Below are positions 20,511 to 52,404 of a stretch of 64,000 bases of DNA, one piece after another (position 1 is the stretch's first letter; each line of letters opens with the position of its first letter). This DNA is from Desulfatitalea tepidiphila. GTDB taxonomy: Bacteria > Desulfobacterota > Desulfobacteria > Desulfobacterales > Desulfosarcinaceae. Below the pieces are notes generated by a model. That model was not told where the DNA came from and searched no databases. It saw nothing but the letters and a program-made list of their open reading frames with translations. The stretch spans positions 2,768,501 through 2,832,500 of the forward strand of contig NZ_BCAG01000003.1 of NCBI RefSeq assembly GCF_001293685.1, in the 5' to 3' direction. The translations under genes were made by a program, and so were the position numbers.

Positions 20511-20551
20511 TTGACTCAAGTCAAGGACGCCGCGTCTGCTCCCGCGATATG
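20511..20551 (+). promoter_or_regulatory. CRP/FNR-type operator and -10 before the kinase/phosphatase pair
   Basis: TTGACTCAAGTCAA (20511-20524) has TTGACT/AGTCAA arms around CA. A GATATG hexamer at 20546-20551 lies 33.5 bases from the box centre, as in class II CRP/FNR-activated promoters. Similar boxes occur at 23135 and 37250 in the same island. Confidence 0.7.
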
Positions 20552-23134: not shown

Positions 23135-23175
23135 TTGACTTAAGTCAAGGCGTTCGGTTAAACTTCGTTTATCAT
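23135..23175 (+). promoter_or_regulatory. CRP/FNR-type operator and -10 before the amidotransferase-nar operon
   Basis: A perfect palindrome TTGACTTAAGTCAA (23135-23148) is followed by TATCAT at 23170-23175, 33.5 bases from the box centre, giving a predicted start near 23182. The first start codon is at 23237. This is the class II activator geometry. Confidence 0.78.
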
Positions 23176-26900: not shown

Positions 26901-27673
26901 CGGGGCTGGCGCTGCGCCACCTGAGCCTGCGCCGCGAAGGCGACCGCTTCCGCTTCGACGACCTGACCGCCCAGCCGCGCAAGATCATCACCTCGCCGGT
27001 GTGGAGCGGCATCGAGTCCGAAGAGCGGCGCTACTCGCCGTTCGTGATCAATATCGAGGAGAAGGTGCCCTTCCGAACGCTCACCGGCCGGGCCCAGTTC
27101 TACCAGGATCATCCCTGGATGCGCGACTTCGGCGAGCAGTTGCCCGTCTACCGGCCGCCCCTGGGCCGAACGGCCGACGATCCGGCGGGCGTGCGCCGCG
27201 AGCCGGAACGCGAAATCGTGCTCAACTACCTCACCCCCCACTCCAAGTGGTCGATCCACAGCACCTATTCCGACACCCTCACCATGCTGACCCTGTTCCG
27301 CGGCGGCGAGGCGATCTGGATCAATGACGCCGACGCCGGCAAAATCGGGGTCAAGGACAACGACTGGCTGGAGTGCTTCAACTCCAACGGGGTGGTGATG
27401 GCCAAGGCCGTGGTGAGCCCGCGCATCCCGCCGGGCAAGGCGTTCATGTACCATGCCCAGGAGCGGATGATCAACACGCCGGGTTCGGGGCTCTCGGGCA
27501 AGCGCGGCGGCACCCACAACAGCGTGACGCGCATCCTGGTCAAGCCCACCCACATGATCGGCGGCTATGCCCAGTTGAGCTACGGCTTCAACTATTACGG
27601 ACCCATCGGGGCCCAGCGCGACGAATCGATCATCGTGCGCAAGGCCGGAAAGGTGGCATGGTATGAAGATTAA
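23969..27673 (+). CDS. narG: Respiratory nitrate reductase, alpha subunit
   Basis: The catalytic Mo-bisMGD subunit of membrane nitrate reductase (nitrate to nitrite). The 1234 residues are close to E. coli NarG (1247). The FS0 ligands H58, C62, C66 and C101 match E. coli H50/C54/C58/C93. The Mo ligand aspartate sits in DWYCDLPPASPQ. SFNPIPA-equivalent GFSPIPAMSM, GEQTDVPESADWY and RTPDAHF segments are conserved. There is no functional Tat signal, so the enzyme should face the cytoplasm. The reading frame is intact. Its 3' end overlaps narH by 11 bases. Confidence 0.97.
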   Translation: MKNSLLNRLRFFRPKGSAHGCNEETGPGQWTQTRCGQREWEDLYRRRWQYDKKVRSTHGVNCTGSCSWDVYVKDGILVWETQATDYPACGDGFPNHEPRGCPRGATYSWYTYSPVRLKHPLVRSCLLEMWRAALEANDDPVSAWAAIAGDNQKRRQFQQARGKGGFVRVDWEEAATLIAAALVHTIQKYGPDRVFGFSPIPAMSMVCYAAGARFLSLIGASMISFYDWYCDLPPASPQIWGEQTDVPESADWYEASYFIVWGTNLPMTRTPDAHFYTEARYRGARVAAVAPDYAEYVKFADTWLPARAGTDAALALAMTHVIVKEFYIECQTPYFMEYARQYTDLPFVVVLGEGAEALTPGRLLRAADLGLTTNNAQWKTVVYDATEGGFAVPNGSIGFRWNEEGRWNLKLEAEGRPVDPLLSFADQNDGWDSVAFAVFAEAGAGVKKGSVPYKTLPTAGGELRVTTVFDLMAAQLGVRHDNAASPSDGYPSDYPIDYSDPKPFTPAWQEAITGVPAADAIRVAREFADNAEKTRGKSMIFLGAGTNHWFHSDMIYRAIINLTTLCGCQGVNGGGWAHYVGQEKVRPQAAWSQVAFGLDWQRPPRQQNGTSFYYFASSQWRYDTLRPETIRSPLADGPAAAHMADYNVIAARLGWLPSYPQFDRNPIDIVRDAVAAGAATDEEIVAHAVQKLKAGELRFAVEDPDHPANFPRMLFLWRANLLGASGKGHEYFLKHLLGADHAVLNTDSPLRPQEIEWREPAPEGKLDLLVTLELRMSTSAMYADIALPAAGWYEMHDLNTTDMHPFIHPFNPAIDPPWETRTNWEQFKTIAARFSELAADHLGTVKELVATPLMHDSPGEIAQAEVRDWRRGECDPVPGKTMPNLAVVSRDFPNTFRKMTALGPLAASAGVGSKGIMWKAQEEVEGLKASLGTVAEGIAQGQPVMETEKQAAETILMLAPETNGATAVKSWGVLEKRTGLALRHLSLRREGDRFRFDDLTAQPRKIITSPVWSGIESEERRYSPFVINIEEKVPFRTLTGRAQFYQDHPWMRDFGEQLPVYRPPLGRTADDPAGVRREPEREIVLNYLTPHSKWSIHSTYSDTLTMLTLFRGGEAIWINDADAGKIGVKDNDWLECFNSNGVVMAKAVVSPRIPPGKAFMYHAQERMINTPGSGLSGKRGGTHNSVTRILVKPTHMIGGYAQLSYGFNYYGPIGAQRDESIIVRKAGKVAWYED

Positions 27674-29087
27674 AGTCCAATACGCCATGGTGCTGAACCT
27701 GGACAAGTGCATCGGCTGCCATACCTGCAGCATTCCCTGCAAGAACGTGTGGACAAACCGCGAGGGCGCCGAATACATGTGGTTCAACAACGTCGAGTGC
27801 AAGCCGGGCATCGGCTATCCCAAAAAATGGGAGAACCAGCAAATTTATCGCGGCGGCTGGACCCTTGACGGCGAACGGTTGCAGCTCGTGGCCGGCGGAC
27901 GGGTGCACAAGGGGCTGAACATCTTCCACAACCCCGACCTGCCGACGATCGACGACTACTACGAACCGTGGGATTACGACTACGGCCGACTGATCGACAG
28001 CCCCCGGCGCAACCATCAGCCCGCGGTGCGACCCCGTTCGCGCCTGACCGGCGAACCCCTCGACGTGAAGTGGGGCCCCAACTGGGAGGACGACCTGGCC
28101 GGCCTGACGGAAACCGGCGGCGGCGACATCAATTTCAAAAACCTGGAGATCCAGACCTACCTGCAATTCCGCAACGTCTTCATGTTCTGGCTGCCGCGAC
28201 TGTGCGAACACTGCCTCAATCCGGCCTGCGTGGCATCGTGCCCGTCCGGCGCCCTGTACAAAAGGGACGAGGACGGCATCGTGCTGGTCGACCAGGAGCG
28301 CTGCCGGGGCTGGCGCTACTGCGTCTCGGGCTGCCCTTACAAGAAGGTCTATTTCAACTGGAAGAGCGGCCGGGCCGAAAAATGCATTTTCTGCTACCCG
28401 CGCATCGAGGCCGGCCTGACCACTCTGTGCGCCCACAGTTGCGTGGGCCGCATCCGCTACGTGGGGATGCTGCTCTATGATGCCGACCGCATCGCCCAGG
28501 CCGCGGCGACCCCGCGGGAGCAGGAGATCTATCCGGCCCACCTGGAGCTCCTGCTCGATCCGCACGACCCCGAGATCGCCCGTGCCGCAACAGCCCAGGG
28601 CATCGCGCCCAACGTGCTGGCCGCGGCGCAACGCTCGCCGGTGCACGCCCTGATCAGCCAGTGGCAACTGGCCCTGCCGCTGCATCCCGAGTTCCGCACC
28701 CTGCCCATGGTGTGGTACGTGCCGCCGCTCAGCCCGATCAGCAGCCATGTGGAAGACCCGGCGGCCACCGGCGAATTGATCGACCGCATGCGCATACCGG
28801 TGGCCTACCTGGCCAACCTGCTCACCGCCGGCGACGAGACCCCGGTGCGACGTGCCCTGGGGCGCCTGGCGGCCCTGCGCCACTTCATGCGCACCCGGCG
28901 GGTCGAACAGCGCGACGACACCCAGGTGCTCGATGCGGTGGGACTCGACACGACCGCCGCGGAAAAAATCTATCGACTGCTGGCCCTGGCTCCCCTGGCC
29001 GAGCGCTTCGTGGTGCCCACTGCAGCGGCGCAAGACGACACCCTTTACACCCGCCAGGGCCAATGCGGCCTGGGCGAAGCCCTTTAA
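27663..29087 (+). CDS. narH: Respiratory nitrate reductase, beta (Fe-S) subunit
   Basis: A 474-residue electron-transfer subunit with four ferredoxin-type clusters. The first cluster ligands are in CIGCHTCSIPCK. The second group is CEHCLNPACVASCP. CRGWRYCVSGCP has the tryptophan that marks the [3Fe-4S] cluster next to haem bP. CIFCYPRIEAG and CAHSCVGR complete the set. The ATG lies inside the end of narG, indicating translational coupling. It is somewhat shorter than E. coli NarH (512) but no cluster is missing. It links NarI haem to the NarG FS0 cluster. Confidence 0.97.
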   Translation: MKIKVQYAMVLNLDKCIGCHTCSIPCKNVWTNREGAEYMWFNNVECKPGIGYPKKWENQQIYRGGWTLDGERLQLVAGGRVHKGLNIFHNPDLPTIDDYYEPWDYDYGRLIDSPRRNHQPAVRPRSRLTGEPLDVKWGPNWEDDLAGLTETGGGDINFKNLEIQTYLQFRNVFMFWLPRLCEHCLNPACVASCPSGALYKRDEDGIVLVDQERCRGWRYCVSGCPYKKVYFNWKSGRAEKCIFCYPRIEAGLTTLCAHSCVGRIRYVGMLLYDADRIAQAAATPREQEIYPAHLELLLDPHDPEIARAATAQGIAPNVLAAAQRSPVHALISQWQLALPLHPEFRTLPMVWYVPPLSPISSHVEDPAATGELIDRMRIPVAYLANLLTAGDETPVRRALGRLAALRHFMRTRRVEQRDDTQVLDAVGLDTTAAEKIYRLLALAPLAERFVVPTAAAQDDTLYTRQGQCGLGEAL

Positions 29088-29102
29088 AAGGAGGCGTACC
29101 CG

Positions 29103-29684
29103 ATGACGACCGCAGCGCCGTCCAGCGATACCTTGCGACTGCTCTCCGTGCTGCTCGACTACCCGGACAACGGCCTGCTGATGGGTCTCGACCGAATTGC
29201 CGCCGCGGCCGAACAGATTGCCGAACCCGAGTTCAAGAGCGCTGCGCAGGGGTTCTTGGACTACCTGCGGGCGCACGCGCCGCTGCGCCTGCAGGAGAAC
29301 TACACGGCCGCCTTTGACCTGCATCCGGCCGCGACCCTCAATCTGACCTATCACGCATACGGCGACAACGAAAAACGCGCCGCGGCCCTGGCGCGATTGC
29401 AGCACCTGTACGACCAGGCCGGCTGGGAGCGCACGGGCGGGGAACTGCCCGATTATCTGCCCCTGCTGTTGGAGTTTCTGGCGATCCACCCCCGGCCGGA
29501 AACCGCACTTCCGGTGTGGCAATGCCTGCACGCCACGCAAACCCTGGTCGCGGGCCTGGAAAAGAGTGCCCCGGCATACGCCATGCTCCTGCGCCCCCTG
29601 GCCCGCCTGGCGGCCGCAACCACCGGACTGGATGACGGCAGCAGCCAGACGCCGGTCCAGCCCCACGCCCACGAGGAGGATTAG
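29103..29684 (+). CDS. narJ: Nitrate reductase molybdenum cofactor assembly chaperone
   Basis: A 193-residue NarJ/TorD-family helical chaperone needed for Mo-cofactor insertion into NarG and for holding NarGH before membrane docking. LLSVLLDYPDN at the N terminus and GELPDYLPLLLEFLA in the middle are family-typical. AAAGGAGG precedes the ATG, 15 bases after narH. The stop codon is one base before the narI ATG. It is shorter than E. coli NarJ (236), which is common in this group. Confidence 0.93.
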   Translation: MTTAAPSSDTLRLLSVLLDYPDNGLLMGLDRIAAAAEQIAEPEFKSAAQGFLDYLRAHAPLRLQENYTAAFDLHPAATLNLTYHAYGDNEKRAAALARLQHLYDQAGWERTGGELPDYLPLLLEFLAIHPRPETALPVWQCLHATQTLVAGLEKSAPAYAMLLRPLARLAAATTGLDDGSSQTPVQPHAHEED

Positions 29685-29685
29685 C

Positions 29686-30360
29686 ATGGACCTTTGGTAT
29701 ACGGTCATCTTTACGGTTTTCCCGTACGTGTGCCTGACCACCTTCGTGGTGGGCCACGCCTATCGCTACGTCACCGACCGGTTCGGGTGGAACGCCCGCT
29801 CCAGCGAGTTCCTCGAGAAAAAACGCCTCTTCGCCGGATCGGTCCTCTTTCATGCCGGCATCATCCTGACCGTTTTCGGACATGCCGGGGGCCTGCTCAT
29901 CCCCCAGCGCGTGTTCGACCTGTTCGGCATCGATGCCCAGGGGCATATGACCCTGGCCTACTGGAGCGGCCTGGCCGTCGGCATCGCCGCCTTTGCCGGG
30001 GTGCTGCTGCTGGCCTGGCGGCGGTTGAGCGTGGCGCGCCTCAAGGCCGTCACCACCCGCAACGATCTCGTCGCGCTGGCAGGCCTGGTTGCGGTGATCG
30101 GCGTCGGACTGTACAATGTGGTGTTCGGACATTTCAACGTGCTGTACACGGTGGCGCCCTGGATCCGCGGCATCGTCACCTTCACCCCCGACCCTGGGCT
30201 GATGCGGGAGGTGCCGTTGAGCTACCAGATTCATGTCGTCGCGGCCTGGGCCCTGCTCGGCTTTTCGCCGTTCAGCCGCCTGGTGCACATCTGGAGCGCG
30301 CCCCTGTTTTACCTCCTGCGACCGCCCATCGTGTTCCGGCGCCGAGTGAGGCAATTCTGA
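29686..30360 (+). CDS. narI: Respiratory nitrate reductase, gamma (cytochrome b) subunit
   Basis: A 224-residue membrane cytochrome b with five helices that oxidises menaquinol. The four haem b ligands are visible: two in LFHAGIILTVFGHAGGL and two in QIHVVAAWALLGFSPFSRLVHIWS. The ATG at 29686 has GAGGA just upstream and follows the narJ stop by one base. The protein length matches E. coli NarI (225). Together with NarGH it completes the energy-conserving enzyme. Confidence 0.96.
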   Translation: MDLWYTVIFTVFPYVCLTTFVVGHAYRYVTDRFGWNARSSEFLEKKRLFAGSVLFHAGIILTVFGHAGGLLIPQRVFDLFGIDAQGHMTLAYWSGLAVGIAAFAGVLLLAWRRLSVARLKAVTTRNDLVALAGLVAVIGVGLYNVVFGHFNVLYTVAPWIRGIVTFTPDPGLMREVPLSYQIHVVAAWALLGFSPFSRLVHIWSAPLFYLLRPPIVFRRRVRQF

Positions 30361-30734: not shown

Positions 30735-31844
30735 ATGGAATCAAAGAAAACCAGCGCAACACCCGAAGCAAAGCGCCCCAAACCATCGGCGCCCGGCCGG
30801 GCCGTTTCCCAGGACATCATCGCCAGGGGCATCAAAGAGCTCAACCCGGCCTATTTCGCCCTGGTGATGTCCACGGGTATTGTCTCGATTGCCGCCCACT
30901 ATCAGGGTTTCGAAAATATTGCATTGACCCTCCTTGGGATCAATGCTGTTGCCTACATGATTCTCTGGGCCATGTACATCGCCCGGATCGTTTGGTTCAC
31001 GCAGCGATTCCGCGAGGATTTTCGTGACCACATGCTCGGCATGGGGTTCTTCACCGCCGTGGCCGCCTCTGGTGTGCTGGGCAGCCAGACGCTGCTGTTG
31101 ACCGGCCGTTTCCCGGTGGCCGCGGTGCTTTGGTGCGTGACGGTGGCCCTATGGCTCTGTCTGATTTACGGCCTGTTCACCGGATTGATCACCAAGGAAG
31201 AAAAGCCCTCCATCGCCCAGGGCATCAACGGCGGATGGCTGCTGGCCATCGTGGCCACCCAGGCCGTCACCGTGCTCAGTACCGCCCTCGCTCCCTTTTT
31301 TCAGCTTTACCGGGAACCCGTTCTTTTTCTGGCCTTCATCACCTGGCTGTTCGGCGGCATGCTCTATATCTGGGTGATCGCGTTGATCTTCTACCGCTAC
31401 CTGTTCTTCCATTTCTCCCCCCAGGACCTGACGCCGCCTTACTGGATCAATATGGGCGCCGTGGCCATCACCACCCTGGGAGGCACCGGATTGATCGCCA
31501 ATGCCTCGGCCTCGCCCTTTATGCTCGAATTGACGCCCTTTTTGAAGGGCCTCACCCTTTTTTTCTGGGCCACTGCCACATGGTGGATTCCAATGCTTAT
31601 CATCTTGGGTGTGTGGCGCCATGGGTTCCGGCGATTCCCTTTGCGTTACAGCCCGCTATTCTGGGGAGCGGTCTTTCCCCTCGGTATGTATACCGCCTGC
31701 ACCCACCGCCTTGCCGAAGTCACCCAGGCGCCAATGATCGCCGTCATCCCCAAGGGATTTGTTTACGTGGCCATGACGGCGTGGCTGGCCACCTTCTTCG
31801 GAATGGTGCACGGCATCGTGGCGGGTCTATACAAAACCAAGTAA
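30735..31844 (+). CDS. TDT/SLAC1-family channel or transporter
   Basis: A 369-residue inner-membrane protein of the tellurite-resistance/dicarboxylate transporter (TDT, SLAC1/TehA) superfamily with about ten helices; NPAYFALVMSTGIVSIAAH is the family entry motif. Members move C4-dicarboxylates, sulfite, malate, or, in plant SLAC1, nitrate and chloride. It begins nine bases after the small nar-linked gene and no narK is present, so a role in nitrate or nitrite movement is a reasonable inference. The N-terminal 25 residues are polar and lysine-rich. The gene is followed by an IS element 56 bases on. Confidence 0.82.
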   Translation: MESKKTSATPEAKRPKPSAPGRAVSQDIIARGIKELNPAYFALVMSTGIVSIAAHYQGFENIALTLLGINAVAYMILWAMYIARIVWFTQRFREDFRDHMLGMGFFTAVAASGVLGSQTLLLTGRFPVAAVLWCVTVALWLCLIYGLFTGLITKEEKPSIAQGINGGWLLAIVATQAVTVLSTALAPFFQLYREPVLFLAFITWLFGGMLYIWVIALIFYRYLFFHFSPQDLTPPYWINMGAVAITTLGGTGLIANASASPFMLELTPFLKGLTLFFWATATWWIPMLIILGVWRHGFRRFPLRYSPLFWGAVFPLGMYTACTHRLAEVTQAPMIAVIPKGFVYVAMTAWLATFFGMVHGIVAGLYKTK

Positions 31845-31900
31845 ACTTCCAACAAATGTTTGATTCGAGAGAGGTGCTATTTTGAATGACAACGTCAAAA

Positions 31901-33309
31901 CACTCTTGTCCAAAAACGGATTTAAAATGAAGTAATCCACTAAAATATTGAAAAAAAGCCCCCTTGTAAGGCATGGTTTAGCTGCGAAGAAAAACCGATA
32001 GCCAACAACAAGGAGGCACCCTGATGGTACGATATGCCAGTCTGTTTAGTCAATTGGTTGCTCTGTTTCACCGAGGTCAATTTCATGGTCTGGTCTTTCG
32101 TCACCAAGCCGAACGATATGCAAAGAGCTTCAACAGCTGGGATCATTTTGTAGCCATGCTATTTTGCCAACTTGCCCAAGCCAAGAGTCTGCGTGAAATA
32201 TGCGGCGGTTTGTCGTGCTGCCTGGGCAAGCTGAGGCATCTTGGGGTAAAAAAGGCGCCCAACAAGTCGACCCTTTCCTATGCCAACGCCCATCGGCCCT
32301 GGCAGATGTTTCAGGACCTGTTTTATCAGACCCTTGATATGTGCAAATTGGCTGGCACCGGCAAACACCGCTTCAAGTTCAAAAACAAGCTGCTATCGCT
32401 GGACAGTTCGACCATATCCCTGTGTCTGTCGCTTTTCCCTTGGGCCAAATTCCGTCGCACCAAAGGAGCTGTCAAACTGCACTTGCTTCTGGATCATAAT
32501 GGGTATTTACCGACCTATGCCTATATTTCCAACGGTAAAAAGCATGATGTCACGATTGCCCGCAAGGTGCCCTTGTCGCCTTATTCTATTGTAGCCATGG
32601 ACAGAGGTTACAACGACTACAATCTGTTTGCCCACTGGACCGAAAACCATATTTTCTTTGTCACCCGCTTAAAGGACAATGCTGACTATACCGTCGTTGA
32701 AGAGCGCTCTGTACCGCAGCATAGAAACATCCTGGCCGATCAGTTAATCCAGTTCAATGGCCACTACGCCCGGAAAAAGTGTTCGCACATTCTTCGCAAG
32801 GTCGTTGTCTGGGAAAAAGAGCAAAACCGTCAAATCGTTCTATTGACCAATCATCTTGAATTTGGGCCAACCACCATATCGGAAATCTACAAGGATCGTT
32901 GGCAGATAGAACTTTTTTTCAAAGCATTGAAACAGAATCTGAAAGTCAAAACCTTCGTTGGTACCAGTGAAAACGCCCTCTACATCCAGATTTGGACAGC
33001 ATTAATTGCCATGCTGCTGATCAAGTACCTTCAGTTCAGATCCAAGTTTGACTGGTCCCTATCGAATCTGGTGGCATTTTTAAGATGGAACCTTTTTACT
33101 TACAGGGACATATGGGATTGGATCGATAGTCCATTTGATGTTCTTCCCATAACTCCCAAGCCTGTCCAACATCTACTACCGTTCAGGGGTGTTGGACAGC
33201 ATCCTTGAAAAAACTGCAACCTGGTACATGAAAATGAGGCCCTGTGATTATAACCACCCGAAATTATAACTGGCCCAGGCCACTTTCAGTTTTATTTTGG
33301 ACAGCAGTG
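31901..33309 (+). mobile_element. IS4-family insertion sequence, complete
   Basis: A 1409-bp element bounded by terminal inverted repeats CACTCTTGTCCAAAA (left) and the complement of TTTTGGACAGCAGTG (right), matching 13 of 15 positions, and flanked by a 9-bp direct repeat. It holds one transposase gene and has visibly lower GC than its neighbours. It is inserted between the nar-linked TDT gene and the DHOD-like/hemerythrin/norB genes, which were probably about 105 bp apart before insertion. Confidence 0.9.
32024..33208 (+). CDS. IS4-family transposase
   Basis: A 394-residue DDE transposase. The N-terminal DUF4372-type domain (FSQLVALFHRGQFHGL) precedes the catalytic core with the aspartates in LSLDSSTIS and VAMDRGYND and the glutamate in the IS4 signature Y-x2-R-x3-E-x6-K (YKDRWQIELFFKALKQNL). 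AAGGAGG precedes the ATG. No frameshift or stop interrupts the frame, so the element is likely recent and active or recently active. Confidence 0.93.
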   Translation: MVRYASLFSQLVALFHRGQFHGLVFRHQAERYAKSFNSWDHFVAMLFCQLAQAKSLREICGGLSCCLGKLRHLGVKKAPNKSTLSYANAHRPWQMFQDLFYQTLDMCKLAGTGKHRFKFKNKLLSLDSSTISLCLSLFPWAKFRRTKGAVKLHLLLDHNGYLPTYAYISNGKKHDVTIARKVPLSPYSIVAMDRGYNDYNLFAHWTENHIFFVTRLKDNADYTVVEERSVPQHRNILADQLIQFNGHYARKKCSHILRKVVVWEKEQNRQIVLLTNHLEFGPTTISEIYKDRWQIELFFKALKQNLKVKTFVGTSENALYIQIWTALIAMLLIKYLQFRSKFDWSLSNLVAFLRWNLFTYRDIWDWIDSPFDVLPITPKPVQHLLPFRGVGQHP

Positions 33310-33367
33310 ACGTCAAAAGATGAATCAAAACCCGAAGCATCCCGAAGCACGGGAGTCAGGAGCAATC

Positions 33368-34360
33368 ATGGACATCACGACAACTTACTTAGGCCTGAGG
33401 CTCGCCAGCCCCCTTATCGTCGGCAGTTCGGGGCTGACCGGTTCGGTGGACAAAATCGCGGCTTTCGCGCGACATGGCGCGGGGGCGGTGGTACTAAAAT
33501 CGATCTTCGAAGAAGAAATCCTCTTCGAGTACGAAGACATCATGAAAGAAGCGCAAGCCGAGGGTGTCAACCTGGATCAGTTCGACTATTACGACTACCA
33601 TCTCAAAGGAAAACGGATAGACAAGTACATCGAATTGATCCGATCCGCCAAAAAGACAGTGGATATCCCGGTCATCGCCAGCATCAACTGCATCTTCTCC
33701 CACGAGTGGACCGCCTTTGCCGACCGCATCCAGGAGGCCGGCGCCGACGCGTTGGAGCTGAACATGTTCTTTCTGCCGTCGGACTTCGAGCGCTCGGCCC
33801 GGGAGCAAGAGGAGGCCTACTTCCGCGTCATCGATAAAGTTCTCGCCGCGGTCTCCATACCGGTAGCCTTGAAGATCAGCTATTATTTTTCCAATCTCGG
33901 GCCCATGATCCAGCGGCTGTCGCGCACCGGCGTGGCCGGACTGGTGCTCTTCAACCGCTTCTTCAGTCCGGACATCGATATAGATGCGTTGAAAGTCAAA
34001 CCCTCCTTCGTTTTCAGCACGCCGGTCGAACTGGCCATATCGCTGCGCTGGATCGCCATCATGGCCCGCAAGGTCGATTGCGATCTGGCCGCCTCCACGG
34101 GCGTTCACGACGGCGAGGGCCTCATCAAGCAGCTTTTGGCCGGCGCTAAGGCGGTACAAACGGTGTCCAGCCTCTACCGCCAGGGGCCCGAGCATGTCGA
34201 GACCATGCTGAATAGGTTGAAAGAGTGGATGCAGTCCCACGGATACCAGCGTTTGGTGGATTTCCGCGGCAAGCTGAGCCAGGAGGCGGCCAGCAATGCG
34301 GCCGTTTACGAACGGGTGCAGTTCATGCGCTATTTCGGAGGTGAAAAGGACGTTACGTAA
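33368..34360 (+). CDS. Dihydroorotate-dehydrogenase-like flavoprotein (paralogue 1)
   Basis: A 330-residue TIM-barrel protein of the DHOD class 1 fold (SPLIVGSSGLTGS start, GAGAVVLKSIFEEE, ASTGVHDGEGLIKQLLAGA phosphate/FMN region). The DHOD active-site segment normally reading LN-x-SCPN is ELNMFFLPSDFE, so the catalytic cysteine and orotate-binding asparagine are absent. It is therefore unlikely to make orotate. CAGGAGC precedes the ATG at 33368; an upstream start at 33320 has no ribosome site. It sits just behind the IS element and 41 bases before the hemerythrin gene. A paralogue lies at 38455. Confidence 0.82.
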   Translation: MDITTTYLGLRLASPLIVGSSGLTGSVDKIAAFARHGAGAVVLKSIFEEEILFEYEDIMKEAQAEGVNLDQFDYYDYHLKGKRIDKYIELIRSAKKTVDIPVIASINCIFSHEWTAFADRIQEAGADALELNMFFLPSDFERSAREQEEAYFRVIDKVLAAVSIPVALKISYYFSNLGPMIQRLSRTGVAGLVLFNRFFSPDIDIDALKVKPSFVFSTPVELAISLRWIAIMARKVDCDLAASTGVHDGEGLIKQLLAGAKAVQTVSSLYRQGPEHVETMLNRLKEWMQSHGYQRLVDFRGKLSQEAASNAAVYERVQFMRYFGGEKDVT

Positions 34361-34401
34361 GTTACGATCTGCGGAAAGTCGACGTTTGAAAGGAGGTCCC
34401 C

Positions 34402-34959
34402 ATGAAGGCCACCCAGGAGTTGAAAAACGAGCACCGCGGCATCGAACAGATGCTGCGGGTCCTGAGTGTCGTCGCGGAGAAAACCGAGCGCGGTGAAGCC
34501 TTGCAGGCTCCACATGTCGATGGCATCATGGAATTCTTGACGATCTTTATCGACAAGTGCCACCACGGCAAGGAGGAGGAGTTTCTCTTCCCGGCACTGG
34601 AAGCCGCCGGGGTGAAGCGGGAAGGCGGCCCCATCGGCGTCCTGTCGAGCGAGCACGAGCAAGGGCGTTCGCTGGTGGCCGGCCTTAAAAAGCATCTATC
34701 CGCTCACCGCGCCGGCGACCGCCGGGCTGCCGGCGACATCCGGAAAACCGTTCAAGCCTACGTGACGCTGCTGACCCAGCATATCGCGAAGGAAGACACC
34801 GTTCTGTTTCCCATGGCCGACGAGAGACTCGACGCCAAACAGGACGAGTCGCTTTTCGAGGCTTTCGAACGGCTGGAACGCGAGCGCATCGGTGCCGGAA
34901 AGCACGAGGCGTTCCATGCCCTGTTGGATGAACTTCAGAATACCTACCTGAGAAAATGA
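34402..34959 (+). CDS. Hemerythrin-like non-haem diiron protein
   Basis: A 185-residue four-helix hemerythrin HHE-domain protein. Diiron ligands are expected in NEHRGIEQ, DKCHHGKEEEFLFPAL, SSEHEQGRS and HIAKEDTVLFPMADE. It lacks the ScdA N-terminal domain of YtfE/RIC proteins. AAAGGAGG precedes the ATG, and norB starts 13 bases after its stop, so the two are co-translated. In this setting it may bind NO or O2 or protect or repair iron centres during NO reduction; the exact role is inferred from neighbours. Confidence 0.88.
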   Translation: MKATQELKNEHRGIEQMLRVLSVVAEKTERGEALQAPHVDGIMEFLTIFIDKCHHGKEEEFLFPALEAAGVKREGGPIGVLSSEHEQGRSLVAGLKKHLSAHRAGDRRAAGDIRKTVQAYVTLLTQHIAKEDTVLFPMADERLDAKQDESLFEAFERLERERIGAGKHEAFHALLDELQNTYLRK

Positions 34960-34972
34960 TGGAGGGTCCCGA

Positions 34973-37258
34973 ATGCACGCAGAGAAATCGCCCCGGCAGG
35001 AGCTTTCTCCCTGGTGGCGCCGCAGTGTGGCGCTGGTCTTCTTTATCGGCATGGCGGTGTTGATCTTCATTTCGGTGCAAGCCTATCGCCATGCGCCGCC
35101 CATACCGGCCAAAGTGGTCGGTTCCGGCGGCGAACCGATTTTCACCGGTCGGGACATCGAGACAGGCCAACAGGTTTTCTTAAAATACGCGCTGATGCAG
35201 AACGGCTCGATCTGGGGGCATGGGGCCTACCTGGGACCCGATTTTTCGGCGCGCTATCTCCATGAACTCGCTCTGGACGCCGGCAACGCGATGGCCCGTG
35301 AGCTGTTCGGCCGTGATCTTTCGGCGCTCGACGAGGGGCAACGTGCGTCTATCGACGCGCAGGTGGCGCTCCTGCTCAAACAGAACCGCTACAATGCCAC
35401 GACGGATACACTTCTGTTTACACCGGCCGAAAAAGCCTCCTTTCAGCGGCAGTTGGGATATTGGGCGGACTATTTCACGCATCCCACAAATAACGGCGGT
35501 CTTCCAAGCAAATATATCGACGACCCGGAAGAGATCCGCCAGCTGAACGCGTTTTTCTCCTGGGCCGCCTGGGCCAGCGTAGCCAACCGGCCGGACAAAC
35601 CCTATTCGTACACCAACAATTTTCCCTACGACCGTGCGGTCGGCAACCTTCTCACCAGCGACGCCATCCTGTGGAGCGCGCTGAGCGTGGTGATGCTGCT
35701 CGGGGGGCTGGCGCTGGTGCTGTTCACCTTCGGGCGGTTCGATTATCTGGGATGGAAAGGGGGAGAACAGGACATCCACCCCATCATGCGACCCGGCGAA
35801 GCGACCCCCGGCCAGAAAGCGGTGGTCAAATACTTCGTGATCGTGGCCCTTCTTTTTTTGGCGCAGGTCATGATCGGGGGCGCTCTGGCCCACTACCGGG
35901 CCGATCCCGGCGATTTTTATGGCATCGATCTGGCCCAGTTTCTGCCCAGCAACATCATGCGCACCTGGCACCTGCAGCTCGCCATTTTTTGGATCGCCAC
36001 CGGCTACGTCGCCGGCGGACTGCTCCTGGCCTCCTCCCTCGGCCAGAATGAACCCCAGGGCCATACAACGGGCGTTCATCTGCTTTTCTGGGCCCTGGTG
36101 GTGTTGGTGGTCGGCAGTCTGTTGGGCGAAATCCTCGGTATTCACCAACTCTTCGGGACCTTGTGGAGCTGGTTCGGCCACCAGGGATGGGAATTTCTCG
36201 AACTGGGAAGGTTCTGGCAGGTGATCCTCGCCGTGGGCCTCAGCTTCTGGCTGTGGCTACTATATAGGGCAGTCGGGCCCGCCCTGAAAGACCCCGGTAA
36301 AAAAGAGATCGGCTGGCTTTTCCTTGGAGCGGCCGCCTCCATTCCGGTATTTTACCTGCCGGCCTTTTTCTTCGGCTCGACCACAAACTATGCGGTGGTC
36401 GATACCTGGCGTTTCTGGATCATTCACCTCTGGGTGGAGGGCTTTTTCGAATTGTTCGTCACCGTTCTGGTGGCTGTCACCTTCTACCAGCTCGGGGTCG
36501 TGCGCCGCATCAACGTGATCCGGGTCATCTATATGGACGCCATCTTGTTTCTCTCCGGGGGCATTATCGGCACGGCTCACCATTGGTACTGGACCGGCCA
36601 GACCAACTTCACCATGGCCCTGGCCGCCATGTTCTCGGCCCTCGAGGTGGTGCCCCTGACCCTCCTGACGCTGGACGCATGGGATTTCATGAAGTTGACC
36701 GGCACGCAGAGCGGTGCCAGCACAGCTCGCAAGGTGATTCCCCATAAATGGGCCTTCTACTTTCTGATGGCCGTGGGTTTCTGGAACTTCGTGGGCGCCG
36801 GCGTCTTCGGCTTTTTGATCAATATGCCGGTGGTGAGTTTCTACGAGGTGGGGACGGTGTTGACCCTCAACCATGGACACGCGGCCCTGTTGGGCGCCTT
36901 TGGCATGCTGGCCATGGCCCTGCTGGTGCTTTGCCTGCGCCATGTGCTCAGCGACGCCCAGTGGGTGGTTCCCGAAAAATGGGTGAAGGTCTCTTTCTGG
37001 GGTATGAACGTGGGCCTGGCCCTGATGGTCATTACCAACCTGTTCCCGGTGGGCGTGCTGCAAATCTGGGATGTGCTCACCAACGGATATTGGCATGCCC
37101 GGGGCCTGGAATTCATGGCCCAGGATCGTATCCGAATGCTGGAATGGGCCAGCCTGCCCTCGCACGTGGTCCTGATCGCCCTGGGTGTCGTTCCCATGGT
37201 GATCGCCGCGGGCCTGACCTATTTAAAGATCCGGCAGCCGGCCTCGGAATTGACTTAA
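34973..37258 (+). CDS. norB: Quinol-dependent nitric oxide reductase (qNOR)
   Basis: A 761-residue single-subunit NO reductase (2 NO to N2O) of the haem-copper superfamily, with 14 predicted helices. The N-terminal cytochrome-c-like domain has no haem motif (KYALMQNGSIWGHGAYLGPDF), which marks qNOR rather than cNOR. FeB and haem ligands are visible in IIHLWVEGFFE, GTAHHWYWTG, RTWHLQLAIFW and LNHGHAALLG, and the conserved glutamate in SALEVVPL is kept. Retention of the His and Glu set argues against the NO dismutase variant. The stop codon lies inside the FNR-type box that starts the next operon. Confidence 0.95.
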   Translation: MHAEKSPRQELSPWWRRSVALVFFIGMAVLIFISVQAYRHAPPIPAKVVGSGGEPIFTGRDIETGQQVFLKYALMQNGSIWGHGAYLGPDFSARYLHELALDAGNAMARELFGRDLSALDEGQRASIDAQVALLLKQNRYNATTDTLLFTPAEKASFQRQLGYWADYFTHPTNNGGLPSKYIDDPEEIRQLNAFFSWAAWASVANRPDKPYSYTNNFPYDRAVGNLLTSDAILWSALSVVMLLGGLALVLFTFGRFDYLGWKGGEQDIHPIMRPGEATPGQKAVVKYFVIVALLFLAQVMIGGALAHYRADPGDFYGIDLAQFLPSNIMRTWHLQLAIFWIATGYVAGGLLLASSLGQNEPQGHTTGVHLLFWALVVLVVGSLLGEILGIHQLFGTLWSWFGHQGWEFLELGRFWQVILAVGLSFWLWLLYRAVGPALKDPGKKEIGWLFLGAAASIPVFYLPAFFFGSTTNYAVVDTWRFWIIHLWVEGFFELFVTVLVAVTFYQLGVVRRINVIRVIYMDAILFLSGGIIGTAHHWYWTGQTNFTMALAAMFSALEVVPLTLLTLDAWDFMKLTGTQSGASTARKVIPHKWAFYFLMAVGFWNFVGAGVFGFLINMPVVSFYEVGTVLTLNHGHAALLGAFGMLAMALLVLCLRHVLSDAQWVVPEKWVKVSFWGMNVGLALMVITNLFPVGVLQIWDVLTNGYWHARGLEFMAQDRIRMLEWASLPSHVVLIALGVVPMVIAAGLTYLKIRQPASELT

Positions 37259-37289
37259 GTCAAGACACCGGCCCCAGAATTCGTATAGG
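37250..37289 (+). promoter_or_regulatory. CRP/FNR-type operator overlapping the norB stop, before the MetE/UroD-like operon
   Basis: A perfect TTGACTTAAGTCAA palindrome (37250-37263) contains the last two codons and stop of norB. TATAGG at 37284-37289 lies 32.5 bases from the box centre. The downstream start codon is at 37372. Geometry matches the two other boxes in the island. Confidence 0.75.
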
Positions 37290-37371
37290 GTTGCAAGGCA
37301 AACCCAGCGGAACCGATTCACCTGAAGATGCAAAACACCTCTATCTGACCGGAACAAAGGAGAAAACGGCC

Positions 37372-38400
37372 ATGCCCAACCCCATTCCCGGCAACCTGCT
37401 GACCACCGCCATGGCGGTGATGCCGCACACGGACGTGGACCGCGCCCTTCAAATGGCCCTGTCGCTCGACGTGCCGTTCTGGCCCCAGTTGCCCAACTAC
37501 AGCTACTACGAAGACATGTACGTCCAGGCCGCCGAGCACTTTCCCGGCATTGTCCTGGACCTGGAAAAACGCAGCCTGCGCTTTTCTATGGACAAGTTCG
37601 CCGAGGAATTGGAAACGACGTTGATGCACTTCGACGAACCGGAGATGTTCGACATCAGCGAAACCTACTCCGCCGTCTACCATCGCTTCCTGGCCATGGA
37701 CCTGGCCGACCGGCCGGCCATCCGGGGGCAGCTCGAGGGGCCCATCAGCTTCGGGTTCAACATCCTGGACCAGGACGAACGGCCCATTCTCTTCGACGAT
37801 ACCGTGCGGCCCTTCATGCTCGACTTCATGGCCAGGCGGATCAACGTCCAGCTCGCCCGGCTGCGAAAATTGAACCCCAATGCCTTCATGTTCGTGGACG
37901 AGCCGGGGTTGCAGTTTCTCTTCTCGGCCATGGCCGGTTACGGCGATCTCAAGGCCAAGGGGGACCTGGACCATTTTTTCGCCCAGGTGGAGCGGCCCCG
38001 CGGCATTCACCTGTGCGGCAACCCGGACTGGGATTTCCTGCTCAACCTGGACTTGGAGGTGCTCTCCCTGGATGTCTACACCAATGCGGAGGTCTTCGCC
38101 TCCTATGCCAAATCCATCGGCAAATTTCTCGATCGCGGCGGCGTAATCGTCTGGGGCATCGTGCCCACCGGGTTCGAGGCCTTCAGCCAGGAGGAGATCC
38201 CCACGTTGATCCAGCGCCTCGAAACGATCTGGACCACCTTGTGGGGCAAGGGGATCGACCGTGAACAATTGATCTCTCAAGGTATGATCTCGCCGGCCAC
38301 CTGCTGCCTGATCAACCCGGACAAGGAGCGCACCGTGGAGCGCGCATTTGCCGCCGTCAATCAGATGGCTGCCGCTCTACGGGAGAAGTACCTGCACTGA
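37372..38400 (+). CDS. MetE/uroporphyrinogen-decarboxylase-like protein
   Basis: A 342-residue TIM-barrel protein of the UroD/MetE/MtaA superfamily. A zinc-thiolate type site is suggested by GIHLCGNPDWD (His-x-Cys) and the distal cysteines in SPATCCLINPD; FVDEPGLQFLF is shared with MetE-type proteins. This favours methyl transfer from a thiol or corrinoid over porphyrin decarboxylation. AAAGGAG precedes the ATG. It is the first gene behind the box at 37250 and lies 54 bases before the second DHOD-like gene. Substrate is unknown. Confidence 0.75.
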   Translation: MPNPIPGNLLTTAMAVMPHTDVDRALQMALSLDVPFWPQLPNYSYYEDMYVQAAEHFPGIVLDLEKRSLRFSMDKFAEELETTLMHFDEPEMFDISETYSAVYHRFLAMDLADRPAIRGQLEGPISFGFNILDQDERPILFDDTVRPFMLDFMARRINVQLARLRKLNPNAFMFVDEPGLQFLFSAMAGYGDLKAKGDLDHFFAQVERPRGIHLCGNPDWDFLLNLDLEVLSLDVYTNAEVFASYAKSIGKFLDRGGVIVWGIVPTGFEAFSQEEIPTLIQRLETIWTTLWGKGIDREQLISQGMISPATCCLINPDKERTVERAFAAVNQMAAALREKYLH

Positions 38401-38454
38401 ACCGCAACGGCGGACAATGTATTTTAAGCTTAACCTGAATGAGAGGAGGTAGGC

Positions 38455-39480
38455 ATGGATCTGACGACCAGTTACATGGGCATGGAGTTGACGAGCCCGA
38501 TCATCGCCGGCAGCTCGGGCATGACCGGATCGATGGATCAGGTCAAAAGGCTGGCGGAAAACGGCGCCGGTGCCGTGGTGCTCAAGTCGATCTTCGAAGA
38601 GGAGGTGATGAACGAGTACGCCGATTTCATCAAGACCGCCCGGGTGCAGTACGGCGATCCCCAATACTTCGACTACGACGGTCAGCGCAGCCCCATCGAG
38701 TATTACGACTACGTGTTGCGCGAAGAGAATCTGAAAAAATACATCGAACTGGTCGAAGCGAGCAAGGCGGCGGTGACGATTCCGGTGATGGCCAGCATCA
38801 ACTGCTTTTTCTATTCGGTGGAGTGGCTCTCCTATGCCGTGAACCTGGAAAAGGCCGGGGCCGACGGTCTGGAGCTCAACATGTTCTTTCCGCCCACCGA
38901 CTTCGAACACTCGCGCGAAGAAAAAGAGGCCCTCTATTTCAAGATCGCCAAACAGGTGACCCAGGCCGTTTCCATCCCCGTGGCCCTGAAGATCAGCCCC
39001 TACTTCACCGACCTGGGCCCCATGATTCAGCGCTTATCCAAAACCGGCATCAAGGGCATCGTCCTGTTCAACCGCTTTTTCAGCCCGGATTTCGACCTCG
39101 ACAAGCTGGAGGTCAAGCCGTCGTTCGTCTTCAGCACCCCGTCGGACCTGGCCCTCTCCCTGCGATGGGTCGCCGTCATGGCCAACAAGGTCGACTGCCA
39201 CCTGGCCGCCTCCACCGGCGTTCACGACGCCGCGGCGGTGATCAAGCAGTTGCTGGCCGGTGCCCATGCCGTGCAGGTCGCCTCCTGCCTCTACAAGAAC
39301 GGGCCGAAGTACATCCGGGAGATGCTCGACGGCGTCGAGGCATGGATGACCGGCCGAAGGTACCGCACCCTTTCGGATTTCAGAGGCAAATTGAGCCAGG
39401 AGCGCAGCGCCGACCCGGCAGTATACGAGCGGGCCCAGTTCATGCGCTATTTTGGCGGCAAAAAGAATGTGACCCTTTAA
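38455..39480 (+). CDS. Dihydroorotate-dehydrogenase-like flavoprotein (paralogue 2)
   Basis: A 341-residue relative of the protein at 33368, sharing the same opening (TSPIIAGSSGMTGS), LKSIFEEE, PVMASINCFF, LFNRFFSPD, VKPSFVFSTP and STGVHD blocks and C-terminal RGKLSQE...YERAQFMRYFGG. It also has ELNMFFPPTDFE in place of the DHOD catalytic LN-x-SCPN, so a non-orotate substrate is expected. A short insertion (DPQYFDYDGQRSP) distinguishes it. GAGAGGAGG precedes the ATG. An ABC transporter ATPase follows 19 bases on. Confidence 0.82.
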   Translation: MDLTTSYMGMELTSPIIAGSSGMTGSMDQVKRLAENGAGAVVLKSIFEEEVMNEYADFIKTARVQYGDPQYFDYDGQRSPIEYYDYVLREENLKKYIELVEASKAAVTIPVMASINCFFYSVEWLSYAVNLEKAGADGLELNMFFPPTDFEHSREEKEALYFKIAKQVTQAVSIPVALKISPYFTDLGPMIQRLSKTGIKGIVLFNRFFSPDFDLDKLEVKPSFVFSTPSDLALSLRWVAVMANKVDCHLAASTGVHDAAAVIKQLLAGAHAVQVASCLYKNGPKYIREMLDGVEAWMTGRRYRTLSDFRGKLSQERSADPAVYERAQFMRYFGGKKNVTL

Positions 39481-43569: not shown

Positions 43570-44175
43570 GTGAATGCAGCGAATCTTCGAGAGTGTGCCC
43601 CCGTCGATATCTCCGATGAGGACGTCATGGCCGCCATGAAAACTATGCAGGGCTATATCGACATCACCCCGGCCGACTTTCGGGAGGTCTACCGGGTGGC
43701 CTACGCCCTGGCCCAGGAACGCATGTTGAACGCCTTGAAAGCCGCCGACATCATGACCCCGACGGTCCACGTGCTCGACGCCGACGCCGATTTGATCGCC
43801 GCCGCCACCCTGCTGGCCGACAAGGGCATCTCGGGCGCGCCGGTGACCGACAGCGACGGCCGCATCGTGGGCGTGATTTCCGAAAAGGACTTTTTGCGCC
43901 GAATGGGCGCTGGTCCGGGCGGATCGTTCATGCGGGTCATCGCCCACTGCCTGAAGAGCAAGGGATGCGTGGCCACGCCCATGGCCGGCCGCACCGTGCG
44001 CGACATCATGAACGCGCCGCCCATCACGGCCGCGGCCGACATCTCCATCGGCGCCATCTCGGCCCTGCTGATGGAGAAAAACATCAACCGCTTGCCGATC
44101 CTGGACGCGGCGGGCAAACCGGTCGGCATCGTCACCCGCTCGGACCTGGTCAACTCGTTCTGCATGCTCGGATAG
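43570..44175 (+). CDS. CBS-pair protein linked to HPP transporter
   Basis: A 201-residue protein starting at GTG. About 55 N-terminal residues of helical character precede two CBS domains (IMTPTVHVLDADADLIAAATLLADKG and IMNAPPITAAADISIGAISALLM; the second ends in RSDLVNSFCM). CBS pairs sense adenylates and commonly gate the neighbouring membrane protein, here an HPP protein that starts 12 bases on. CBS-HPP fusions are also known, which supports a joint function. The frame is intact. Confidence 0.87.
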   Translation: MNAANLRECAPVDISDEDVMAAMKTMQGYIDITPADFREVYRVAYALAQERMLNALKAADIMTPTVHVLDADADLIAAATLLADKGISGAPVTDSDGRIVGVISEKDFLRRMGAGPGGSFMRVIAHCLKSKGCVATPMAGRTVRDIMNAPPITAAADISIGAISALLMEKNINRLPILDAAGKPVGIVTRSDLVNSFCMLG

Positions 44176-44187
44176 ACAGGAGAATCC

Positions 44188-44724
44188 ATGAAGTTTTTCG
44201 AAAAAATGCTGGGGCACACCCAGAGCCCGCCCCGGGTCGGCGCGGTGGAAATCCTCTGGTCCTGGATCGGCAGTTTCGCGGGCATCGCCCTGGTGGCACT
44301 GATCCATTACAACCTGCTGGACCGAACGGCGCTTTCCATGATCATCGGCTCGTTCGGCGCCTCGGCCGTTCTCATCTACGGCGCCATCCGCAGCCCCCTG
44401 GCCCAGCCGCGCAGCCTGATCGGCGGCCATGTGCTCTCGGCCGTGATCGGCGTGGCGGCCTTTCAGTTCCTGGGCCAACTGCCCTGGCTGGCGTCGGCCG
44501 CGGCCGTCTCCACGGCCATTGCCCTGATGCATTGGACCAAGACCCTGCACCCGCCGGGCGGCGCCACGGCCCTGATCGCGGTCATCGGCGGCGACAGCGT
44601 GCACCAGTTGGGCTATCTCTACGCGGTCATCCCCGCCGGACTGGGCGCCCTCGTCATGCTGATCATCGCCCTGCTGATCAACAACATCGCGCCCAACCGG
44701 CGATATCCCGAATTCTGGTTTTAA
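44188..44724 (+). CDS. HPP-family membrane protein, candidate nitrite transporter
   Basis: A 178-residue protein with four membrane helices and the family-defining LHPPGGATALIA motif. HPP proteins in cyanobacteria and plant chloroplasts have been reported to transport nitrite. Here the gene sits among nitrate-reductase, NO-reductase and hydroxylamine-reductase genes and follows a CBS regulator, so nitrite uptake or export is a testable inference. AGGAG precedes the ATG. The flavodiiron gene starts 40 bases downstream. Confidence 0.88.
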   Translation: MKFFEKMLGHTQSPPRVGAVEILWSWIGSFAGIALVALIHYNLLDRTALSMIIGSFGASAVLIYGAIRSPLAQPRSLIGGHVLSAVIGVAAFQFLGQLPWLASAAAVSTAIALMHWTKTLHPPGGATALIAVIGGDSVHQLGYLYAVIPAGLGALVMLIIALLINNIAPNRRYPEFWF

Positions 44725-44764: not shown

Positions 44765-45943
44765 ATGCAGAAAAGAAAGATCATGGAAAACATCTACTGG
44801 ATGGGCGCCATCGATTGGGATCGACGGCTTTTCGACTCTTTGATTCCGCTTCCCGACGGTACCTCGTACAATGTCTATCTGGTCCAGGGCAGCGATAAAA
44901 CTGCCCTGCTGGACACGGTCGATCCCCCTATGGCCGGCGAATTGCTCGCCCAATTGGCCGACGTGAAGAAAATCGATTATATCGTGTCGCACCATGCTGA
45001 ACAGGACCACTCCGGCACCATCCCGCTCGTGCTCGAACGGTATCCGGAAGCCAAGGTGGTGGCGACACCCAAGGCCAAGGGCATGCTCATGGATATCCTG
45101 GACATACCGGAAAACGCCTTTGTCACAGTGGGTGACGGCGACACCCTCTCCCTGGGAGACAAGACCCTGAAATTCATCCACACCCCCTGGGTGCACTGGC
45201 CGGAAACCATGGTGACCTATCTAGCGGAAGACAAAATTCTCTTCAGCTGCGATTTTTACGGCTCTCACATCGCCACCACCGATCTTTTCGTCACCGACCA
45301 GGGCCGGGTGCACGAAGCCGCCAAGCGCTATTTCGCCGAGATCATGATGCCGTTTCGGACCATCATCGCCAAAAACATGGAAAAGCTCAAAGCGTATGAG
45401 ATCGGCATGATCGCGCCGAGCCACGGCCAGATCTACGACCGTCCGGCCTGGATCCTGGAGGCCTACCAGGATTGGGTGAATGGTGCCCCGCACAACGTGG
45501 TCGTGCTGCCCTTCGTCTCCATGCACGGCAGCACCCGGCAAATGGTGGATCGCCTGACCGCCGCGCTCGTCGAACAAGGGGTCCGCGTGGAGCTGTTCAA
45601 CCTGGCGGTCACCGATATCGGCAAGCTCGCCATGGCTCTGGTCGATGCCGGCACCATCGTCGTGGGCGTGCCCACCGTCCTGGCCGGTCCACACCCTTTG
45701 GCCGCCTATGCGACATTGCTGGCCAACGCCCTCAGGCCCAAGGCCAAGTTTCTCTCGATCATCGGCTCCTATGGTTGGGGCGGCAAGACCGTGGAAACCC
45801 TGGCCGGAATGATTCCCAACCTCAAGGTCGAGGTGCTGGATCCGGTCTTGTGCAAAGGGGTTCCCGCGGCGTCCGATTTTCAATTAATAGACCAACTGGC
45901 CGCCGCGATCGCTCGGAAACATGAAGAGAACGGCCTGCGATAG
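44765..45943 (+). CDS. fprA: Flavodiiron protein (A-type), NO/O2 reductase
   Basis: A 392-residue cytosolic FDP. The metallo-beta-lactamase-like domain keeps all diiron ligands: HHAEQDHSG (His-x-Glu-x-Asp), VHWPE, SCDFYG and PSHGQIY. The flavodoxin domain begins near PFVSMHGSTRQMV and has GSYGWGGKTV. It lacks the rubredoxin of NorV, so an external donor is needed; none is adjacent except a flavin reductase at 49098. It reduces NO to N2O or O2 to water. AGGAAGGAG precedes the start. It is the last gene before the separate hcp promoter. Confidence 0.94.
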   Translation: MQKRKIMENIYWMGAIDWDRRLFDSLIPLPDGTSYNVYLVQGSDKTALLDTVDPPMAGELLAQLADVKKIDYIVSHHAEQDHSGTIPLVLERYPEAKVVATPKAKGMLMDILDIPENAFVTVGDGDTLSLGDKTLKFIHTPWVHWPETMVTYLAEDKILFSCDFYGSHIATTDLFVTDQGRVHEAAKRYFAEIMMPFRTIIAKNMEKLKAYEIGMIAPSHGQIYDRPAWILEAYQDWVNGAPHNVVVLPFVSMHGSTRQMVDRLTAALVEQGVRVELFNLAVTDIGKLAMALVDAGTIVVGVPTVLAGPHPLAAYATLLANALRPKAKFLSIIGSYGWGGKTVETLAGMIPNLKVEVLDPVLCKGVPAASDFQLIDQLAAAIARKHEENGLR

Positions 45944-49053: not shown

Positions 49054-49097
49054 GCCTGCATGTCAACTGGCCTAAAAAGCCCGAAGGAGCAGGAAAT

Positions 49098-49994: not shown

Positions 49995-52310
<2,316 letters not shown>

Positions 52311-52345
52311 TCATCTTTATTAAAGATCGAACTGTCCCATCTGTT

Positions 52346-52384: not shown

Positions 52385-52404
52385 ATAACAGGTGAAAAAA
52401 TATA

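Follow-up and report, generated by a model that had tools for sequence, protein, structure and literature searches.

What does a protein do once it has kept the barrel and flavin side of a dihydroorotate dehydrogenase (DHOD) and lost the catalytic segment? This question is raised by two genes, here termed A and B, in 64,000 nucleotides of the Desulfatitalea tepidiphila genome (contig NZ_BCAG01000003.1, positions 2,768,501 to 2,832,500), a stretch that we call the window and whose own numbering is used below. A preliminary description of this sequence reported two DHOD-like paralogues, beginning at 33368 and 38455, that flank genes for hemerythrin, NorB and a MetE/UroD-like protein, and the open reading frames (ORFs) and their neighbours are indeed found at these places. 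It also regarded them as an undescribed system. This view is not supported, because both proteins belong to a named family, NF005741, whose members commonly reside beside pyruvate-ferredoxin oxidoreductase (PFOR) and for which a hypothesis has been published. The generic annotation splits into a PFOR-linked type and a type marked by the sequence block ELNMFF, which has its own residues and, partly, a nitrate/nitric oxide (NO) context. A and B are of the ELNMFF type. Since their distant cousins adjoin a pyruvate-oxidising enzyme, they look like a redox protein of a known, unstudied kind that has been turned to a new use. We tentatively propose that they act in anaerobic NO/nitrite defence as flavin mononucleotide (FMN) partners for electron transfer, a reading that is possible rather than probable.

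Flavin and substrate sides of the active site

A and B are 60% identical over 340 columns, both match the Pfam domain DHO_dh, and they score 416 bits (A) and 400 bits (B) against NF005741/PRK07565, ‘dihydroorotate dehydrogenase-like protein’, for which the curated cut-off is 303. The family is already named, without a characterised function. A and B are the sole genes in the genome above this cut-off; a third, weaker match is a PyrD-type gene of 307 amino acids (aa) at a separate place. The ATG at which A starts lies downstream of position 33320, where the mechanically called ORF opens. A homologue at a related locus (L046) is 99% identical to B.

Relatives were collected from several samples, in which genes were called crudely. 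A scan of named genomes, made with short peptides of B, gave a non-random sample of 38 loci. In the phylum sample, a DHOD-like protein was found in 11 of 198 genomes at E <= 1e-60, and the order sample gave 73 matches in 62 of 389 genomes, for all of which the neighbourhoods were read to the contig ends (the window, L086, L090 and L104-L168). Full-length rows (>=300 aa) number 103, comprising 68 that carry ELNMFF (66 from the order sample, with L087 and L088 added) and 35 others that derive mainly from the non-random scan; seven split or short matches (six from the order sample and L093) were excluded from the former group, and L079 and L081 from the latter. These rows are related sequences rather than independent events, as the window and L149 are near-identical and three regions carry both A and B. 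The two groups were set by the motif itself and are in this respect circular, so the non-circular figure is the presence of ELNMFF in 66 of the 67 full-length order-sample matches. The exception (L146) is 39% identical and adjoins PFOR. Together with dN/dS values of 0.06-0.22 across the seven DHOD pairs tested (dS being saturated or high in some), this figure rules out decay or chance as the origin of the motif, and agrees with the preliminary description in treating the shared substitution as a conserved change.

The residues involved were examined in an alignment of 57 of the 103 full-length rows (39 ELNMFF, 18 others), which was matched to class 1B and class 1A DHOD chains and to dihydropyrimidine dehydrogenase (DPD; pig numbering). 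DPD Cys671, which we take to be catalytic, aligns with residue 145; this is Phe in all 39 ELNMFF rows, including A and B, and nine of the 18 remaining rows have Tyr here. The adjacent DPD S670 aligns with residue 144, likewise Phe in 39/39 ELNMFF rows and Tyr in 15/18 others. The catalytic LN-x-SCPN segment has thus been replaced, as was originally claimed, and so too has the FMN side been kept: N142, K179 and N206, which align with DPD N668, K709 and N736, are invariant in all 57 rows, and K44 (DPD K574) is Lys in 39/39 ELNMFF rows versus 3/18 others. We presume that these Lys and Asn residues contact FMN, as we do for their DPD counterparts. Also invariant in the 57 rows are G255 and the trio E49, W124 and R326. 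Other positions on record are R207 (DPD T737), which is Arg in 55/57 rows, and the DPD N609 position, which is Asp in 32 and Asn in 2 of the 39 ELNMFF rows. Cys117 is present in 39/39 ELNMFF rows versus 3/18 others, 15 of which have Gly, and T254 is fixed in the 39 ELNMFF rows. Overall, K44, C117, F144/F145 and T254 mostly differ in the 18 rows that lack ELNMFF.

The structural model of B (mean pLDDT 89.9) places Cys117 just past a barrel strand and has DPD and class 1A DHOD as its nearest solved folds (TMq 0.63-0.69 among the 50 matches listed). A and B therefore share with class 1 DHOD and the C-terminal domain of DPD both the fold and the FMN-side Lys and Asn residues, but differ from them in the catalytic Cys and other substrate-side positions. 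Domain scans identified DHO_dh as the only domain in A and B; the Pfam and NCBIfam scans detected neither the 4Fe-4S part of DPD/PreA nor any domain for NAD(P)H binding or Fe-S clusters. The conserved residues suggest that A and B would bind FMN. Dihydroorotate-type catalysis is unlikely because the flavin side is retained while the substrate side has been rebuilt, and acid-base chemistry of either the dihydroorotate or the dihydropyrimidine type is probably no longer possible.

PFOR-linked and ELNMFF relatives

The rows with and without ELNMFF differ sharply in their genomic partners. PFOR (identified on L061 by TIGR02176, above its cut-off) directly neighbours the DHOD-like gene in 29 of the 35 rows without ELNMFF versus none of the 68 rows with it, and 22 of the 29 PFOR-adjacent rows carry ELN[IV]YY (ELNMFF, 0/29). 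A GltD-like gene is present within 10 kb in 9 of the 35 non-ELNMFF rows. Three more of these rows, all from Bacteroidales and among the six that lack an adjacent PFOR, have aldehyde ferredoxin oxidoreductase (AFOR) within 10 kb. Indeed, in the Bacteroidales loci L053-L055 the DHOD-like gene resides beside or near an AFOR-type gene, a third ferredoxin-linked partner. In a quick tree, for which long-branch warnings were issued, all 68 ELNMFF rows group in a single fork (SH-aLRT 95), within which A and B fall in separate forks of 27 and 30 rows (SH-aLRT 99 each).

Two published cases resemble the PFOR-linked type, to which we liken them by their published descriptions. In Propionibacterium, the gene for PFOR, one that is glutamate-synthase-like and one that is DHOD-like are reported to be co-transcribed, and an electron-bifurcating complex has been postulated (PMC7650540). 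In Synechocystis, sll0744, annotated as a dihydroorotate dehydrogenase, is listed among transiently upregulated genes that include nifJ sll0741 (PMC11368403). PFOR-linked NF005741 proteins belong to the same named subfamily as A and B, are 34-42% identical to them and have likewise had the catalytic Cys replaced. However, A and B carry ELNMFF, K44 and C117, have no PFOR neighbour and occur in a partial nitrate/NO context.

Copies of the DHOD-like gene are not always intact. In L116 (5884-6719) and L118 (4624-5459), a second copy between the hemerythrin and NarG genes is split into two overlapping frames, and an intact copy is also present downstream of nar.

Nitrogen-oxide neighbours, palindromes and the MetE/UroD-like gene

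Genes for Nar, NorB, Hcp or hemerythrin reside within 10 kb in 20 of the 68 ELNMFF rows, which represent 15 genomes and seven genus codes. These nitrogen-oxide (N-oxide) markers are concentrated in the subclades of A (10/16 rows) and B (9/15 rows), which were picked (31 rows) after the contexts were seen, versus 1/37 of the remaining ELNMFF rows. They were found in 1/35 non-ELNMFF rows and in none of 40 randomly placed 20-kb windows, which were drawn from 14 genomes of this order. On an ELNMFF-only tree, N-oxide neighbours require 10 parsimony changes, a number given without a shuffled comparison. An hcp gene is found no further than 10 kb away in 9 of 61 ELNMFF genomes (counted by eye) versus about 0.5 expected from hcp density; this Poisson test used 71 loci, where 73 matches were found (72 without the PFOR-type one), and a density based on 94 hcp matches, three of them under the cut-off. 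Both the Poisson and the Fisher figures ignore kinship among rows. For genome content, NarH is present in 19/61 ELNMFF genomes versus 27/328 without ELNMFF, and NorB shows a modest link (17/61 versus 46/328).

A further association involves TIGR03980, the hybrid cluster protein-associated redox disulfide domain. Searches of 67 loci with tblastn gave matches in 7 of the 15 subclade B rows, one of which (L158) spans 22 residues only, and none in the other 60 loci. The five TIGR03980 proteins that were scanned all score above the cut-off. The order DHOD-B, TIGR03980 protein, hcp recurs at L155, L159, L160 and L161, four loci that represent two genus codes, and L154 has all three genes in another order. 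The nitrogen-oxide link of the ELNMFF clade is real but partial: the suggested tie to NO, and the expected conservation of norB, hemerythrin and hcp as neighbours (here counted with Nar), hold for much of two subclades, but the tie is not general. Since other members lie near catalase (L135, L137, L148), aconitase (L139-L141), glutamate dehydrogenase (L104, L107, L108, L110) or HMGL-like genes (L112, L113, L121, L128), the clade has further contexts; one member of each such neighbour cluster was named by Pfam and the rest by similarity. Immediately after DHOD-A, small genes without a family name are found repeatedly in the nar-linked loci L115, L124 and L152 (clusters c24 and c36) and L117 (c24).

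The HcpR consensus for delta-proteobacteria other than Desulfovibrio is given as wyTTGACnnnnGTCAArw (PMC1274295). The window carries a site of the form TTGACnnnnGTCAA at 37250-37263, ahead of the MetE-like/DHOD-B pair. Exact TTGAC-N4-GTCAA sites number 12 genome-wide versus 2 for the reversed control pattern; seven are within predicted genes and five are intergenic, three of these in the window. The other two intergenic sites lie between a CRP/FNR-type gene and the genome's other hcp, and before a cupin gene (L220). Only exact sites stand out, as relaxed versions (<=2 mismatches) occur in the window at chance (26 versus 24.3). A CRP-type HcpR site, TGTGA-N6-TCACA, was tried and rejected, with no exact copy in the window and 17 copies with <=2 mismatches versus 19.9 expected by chance. 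No palindrome was found before A, where the upstream region carries an IS4-type insertion. Among relatives, the site corresponding to 37250 is exact in L149, whereas L150 and L151 each deviate from it at one position; L129 has an exact site before its run from nar to DHOD-A. When one mismatch is allowed, sites are found in 15/68 ELNMFF, 6/35 other and 55/436 control loci, and so there is no clear enrichment. It is possible that in this genome the MetE-like/DHOD-B pair is under the predicted FNR/HcpR-type site.

The MetE-like gene shares the palindrome of B by its position. No Pfam or NCBIfam match to its product was obtained at E <= 0.001, and sequence searches of PDB chains with the protein and its profile gave nothing useful. 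The model (pLDDT 87.5) resembles MetE, UroD and a methyltransferase from Methanosarcina. The His-x-Cys...Cys zinc-type site noted in the preliminary description is borne out, with H213, C215 and D234 invariant in 25 rows and C311/C312 present in at least 90%. Both this site and the MetE/UroD fold liken the protein to the core methionine synthase MesB, in which H-C-D-C occupy 214, 216, 235 and 311 (PMC7857596) rather than 213, 215, 234 and 311. The two differ in that the position of the homocysteine-binding Ser433, a residue which the same paper describes as mostly conserved in MesB, is apparently Val16 here (aligned by eye). Homologues of the MetE-like protein, a set that takes in distant paralogues, were found in 126/198 phylum genomes at E <= 1e-10, compared with 11/198 for DHOD-like proteins at the different E limit given above. 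The gene lies within 10 kb in 13/68 ELNMFF rows and is adjacent in 9/68, and in G161 and G021 it is 210-216 kb from the DHOD-like gene. A joint redox/methyl-transfer module, as previously envisaged, is thus rejected as a general unit, because the MetE-like gene has a much wider distribution and in many cases is placed elsewhere. Its product represents a distinct and widespread family with a methyltransferase fold, and is not a constant partner of the DHOD-like proteins.

The remaining features of the region are collected in the table, and an ABC/FtsX-type export set is also among the genes around A and B. The near-identical locus L046 has no IS4-type insert at the corresponding place, and the insertion may therefore have separated A from the nar/channel transcript here. 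A gene for a cNMP-binding/Ser-Thr protein kinase followed by one for a PP2C-type phosphatase (20675-23079), with an exact palindrome ahead, could possibly encode a signalling pair in a nitrate/NO regulon. Directly past hcp (47848-49667) are a GAF plus guanylate-cyclase-type gene and a flavin-reductase-like gene. On the minus strand (49998-52851), a peroxidase-family (PF00141) gene of 758 aa adjoins a Fur-family regulator.

Table. Features of the window discussed in the text, with positions in window numbering.
Feature	Position	Strand	Basis or remark
Third perfect palindrome, ahead of cNMP-binding/Ser-Thr kinase gene	20511..20524	.	exact site
Second perfect palindrome, ahead of GATase gene (23237) and nar genes	23135..23148	.	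exact site
narG, narH, narJ, narI, respiratory nitrate reductase	23969..30360	+	all above NCBIfam cut-offs
SLAC1/TDT-type anion channel (PF03595)	30735..31844	+	domain match
IS4-type insertion (transposase 32024-33208), between channel gene and A	31895..33340	+	domain matches
DHOD-like protein A (NF005741), 330 aa, ELNMFF subclade A	33368..34360	+	ORF, family score, tree
Altered catalytic loop of A, ELNMFFLPSDFE	33755..33790	+	sequence
Hemerythrin-domain protein (PF01814), next to A	34402..34959	+	domain match
NorB-type nitric oxide reductase (PF22085 + COX1)	34973..37258	+	domain match
Perfect palindrome TTGACTTAAGTCAA, overlapping norB stop codon, 108 nt before MetE-like start	37250..37263	.	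HcpR consensus match
MetE/UroD-fold protein, zinc-type site H213, C215, D234, C311/312	37372..38400	+	alignment, model
DHOD-like protein B (NF005741), 341 aa, ELNMFF subclade B	38455..39480	+	ORF, family score, tree, model
Altered catalytic loop of B, ELNMFFPPTDFE	38872..38907	+	sequence
CBS-domain protein and HPP-family membrane protein	43570..44724	+	adjoin or lie near DHOD-B in several relatives
ODP/flavorubredoxin-like flavodiiron-type protein	44765..45943	+	domain matches
Hybrid cluster protein Hcp (TIGR01703), 6.6 kb past B	46070..47713	+	family match

Proposed electron transfer and competing explanations

For species that lack hcr it is, to our knowledge, unclear what naturally reduces Hcp. 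A and B, as putative FMN-binding TIM-barrel flavoproteins of PRK07565/NF005741, might fill such a role. The ancestral function would have been low-potential electron transfer beside ferredoxin-linked oxidoreductases such as PFOR and AFOR. Members of the Desulfobacterales ELNMFF clade would since have moved away from PFOR, with two subclades now in nitrate-respiration and NO-defence neighbourhoods. Electrons from a ferredoxin- or flavodoxin-type donor could then pass through A and B to the NO/nitrite-defence machinery, where Hcp with its TIGR03980 redox-disulfide partner and a hemerythrin-type repair protein are candidate acceptors. This role would parallel that of Hcr serving Hcp in E. coli. 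The resemblance to the Hcp-Hcr/HcpR system lies in the nearby hcp genes of the nine genomes and in the HcpR-type consensus palindrome of the window. The difference is that Hcr is an NADH oxidoreductase (PMC1274295), whereas no NADH-binding domain was found in B. A stronger version of this proposal would make the ELNMFF clade a novel class of flavoproteins for NO defence in sulfate reducers, in which an FMN protein that lacks NAD(P)H and Fe-S modules takes the place of Hcr and reduces Hcp via TIGR03980, under HcpR-type control; it appears distinctly improbable.

Several observations weigh against the electron-transfer proposal. A core N-oxide marker is absent within 10 kb in 48/68 ELNMFF rows, many of whose contigs end early, and other neighbours of the clade include glutamate dehydrogenase, aconitase, catalase and HMGL-like genes. 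No TIGR03980-like match was detected by tblastn in the window itself. The palindrome is absent from most other ELNMFF loci, and exact TTGAY-N4-RTCAA sites occur in 4/68 ELNMFF loci versus 3/436 control genes and are not general. The electron donor is a guess because the domain scans found no NAD(P)H-binding or Fe-S domain, the evidence for an Hcr-like role comes from gene neighbourhood, and the PFOR-type rows used for comparison stem from a non-random scan.

Much of this would also suit ELNMFF proteins that are general, PFOR-type ferredoxin-linked electron carriers, with nar/nor/hcp islands merely gathering anaerobic redox genes. We consider this explanation doubtful but worth serious weight, given the PFOR neighbours of the non-ELNMFF rows, the published NfnAB-like hypothesis with co-transcription in Propionibacterium (PMC7650540) and the mixed contexts in the rest of the ELNMFF clade. 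What speaks against it is that PFOR adjoins no ELNMFF row, that the aligned ELNMFF rows all share K44, C117, F144/F145 and T254, most of which are changed in the others, and that N-oxide neighbours recur across genomes and genus codes with several parsimony changes.

The rebuilt substrate side permits other interpretations. An active reductase for a new small substrate, such as a nitrosated or nitro compound, could have had its pocket rebuilt from Arg207, the aromatic residues 144/145 and Cys117, and the conservation of R207, Cys117, E49, W124 and R326 fits this idea; however, the bulky Phe144/145 could instead close the pocket, and we regard such a reductase as unlikely. A dihydroorotate or dihydropyrimidine dehydrogenase that employs Cys117 as its base is the least credible of these alternatives. 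Although this Cys is suitably fixed just past a barrel strand, and DPD too has a Cys nearby in the alignment, the positions of DPD N609, S670, C671 and T737 have changed, Gly replaces Cys117 in most other rows and the genome has its separate PyrD-type gene. There is also little to recommend a non-catalytic FMN or structural protein retained for binding or sensing. Loss of the catalytic residue and the split copies in L116 and L118 would be expected of such a protein, and set against it are the invariant FMN-side residues and the low dN/dS, both of which are compatible with binding without catalysis.

Among open-licence PMC literature, no published link of DHOD-like proteins to NO or Hcp was found. 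The DHOD-like subfamily bears a generic name, with no tested function in the literature searched, and two proposals for it follow from the present comparison. Its members may serve as ferredoxin-linked partners of PFOR, and those of the ELNMFF type may act as electron donors for Hcp-type NO defence in strict anaerobes.

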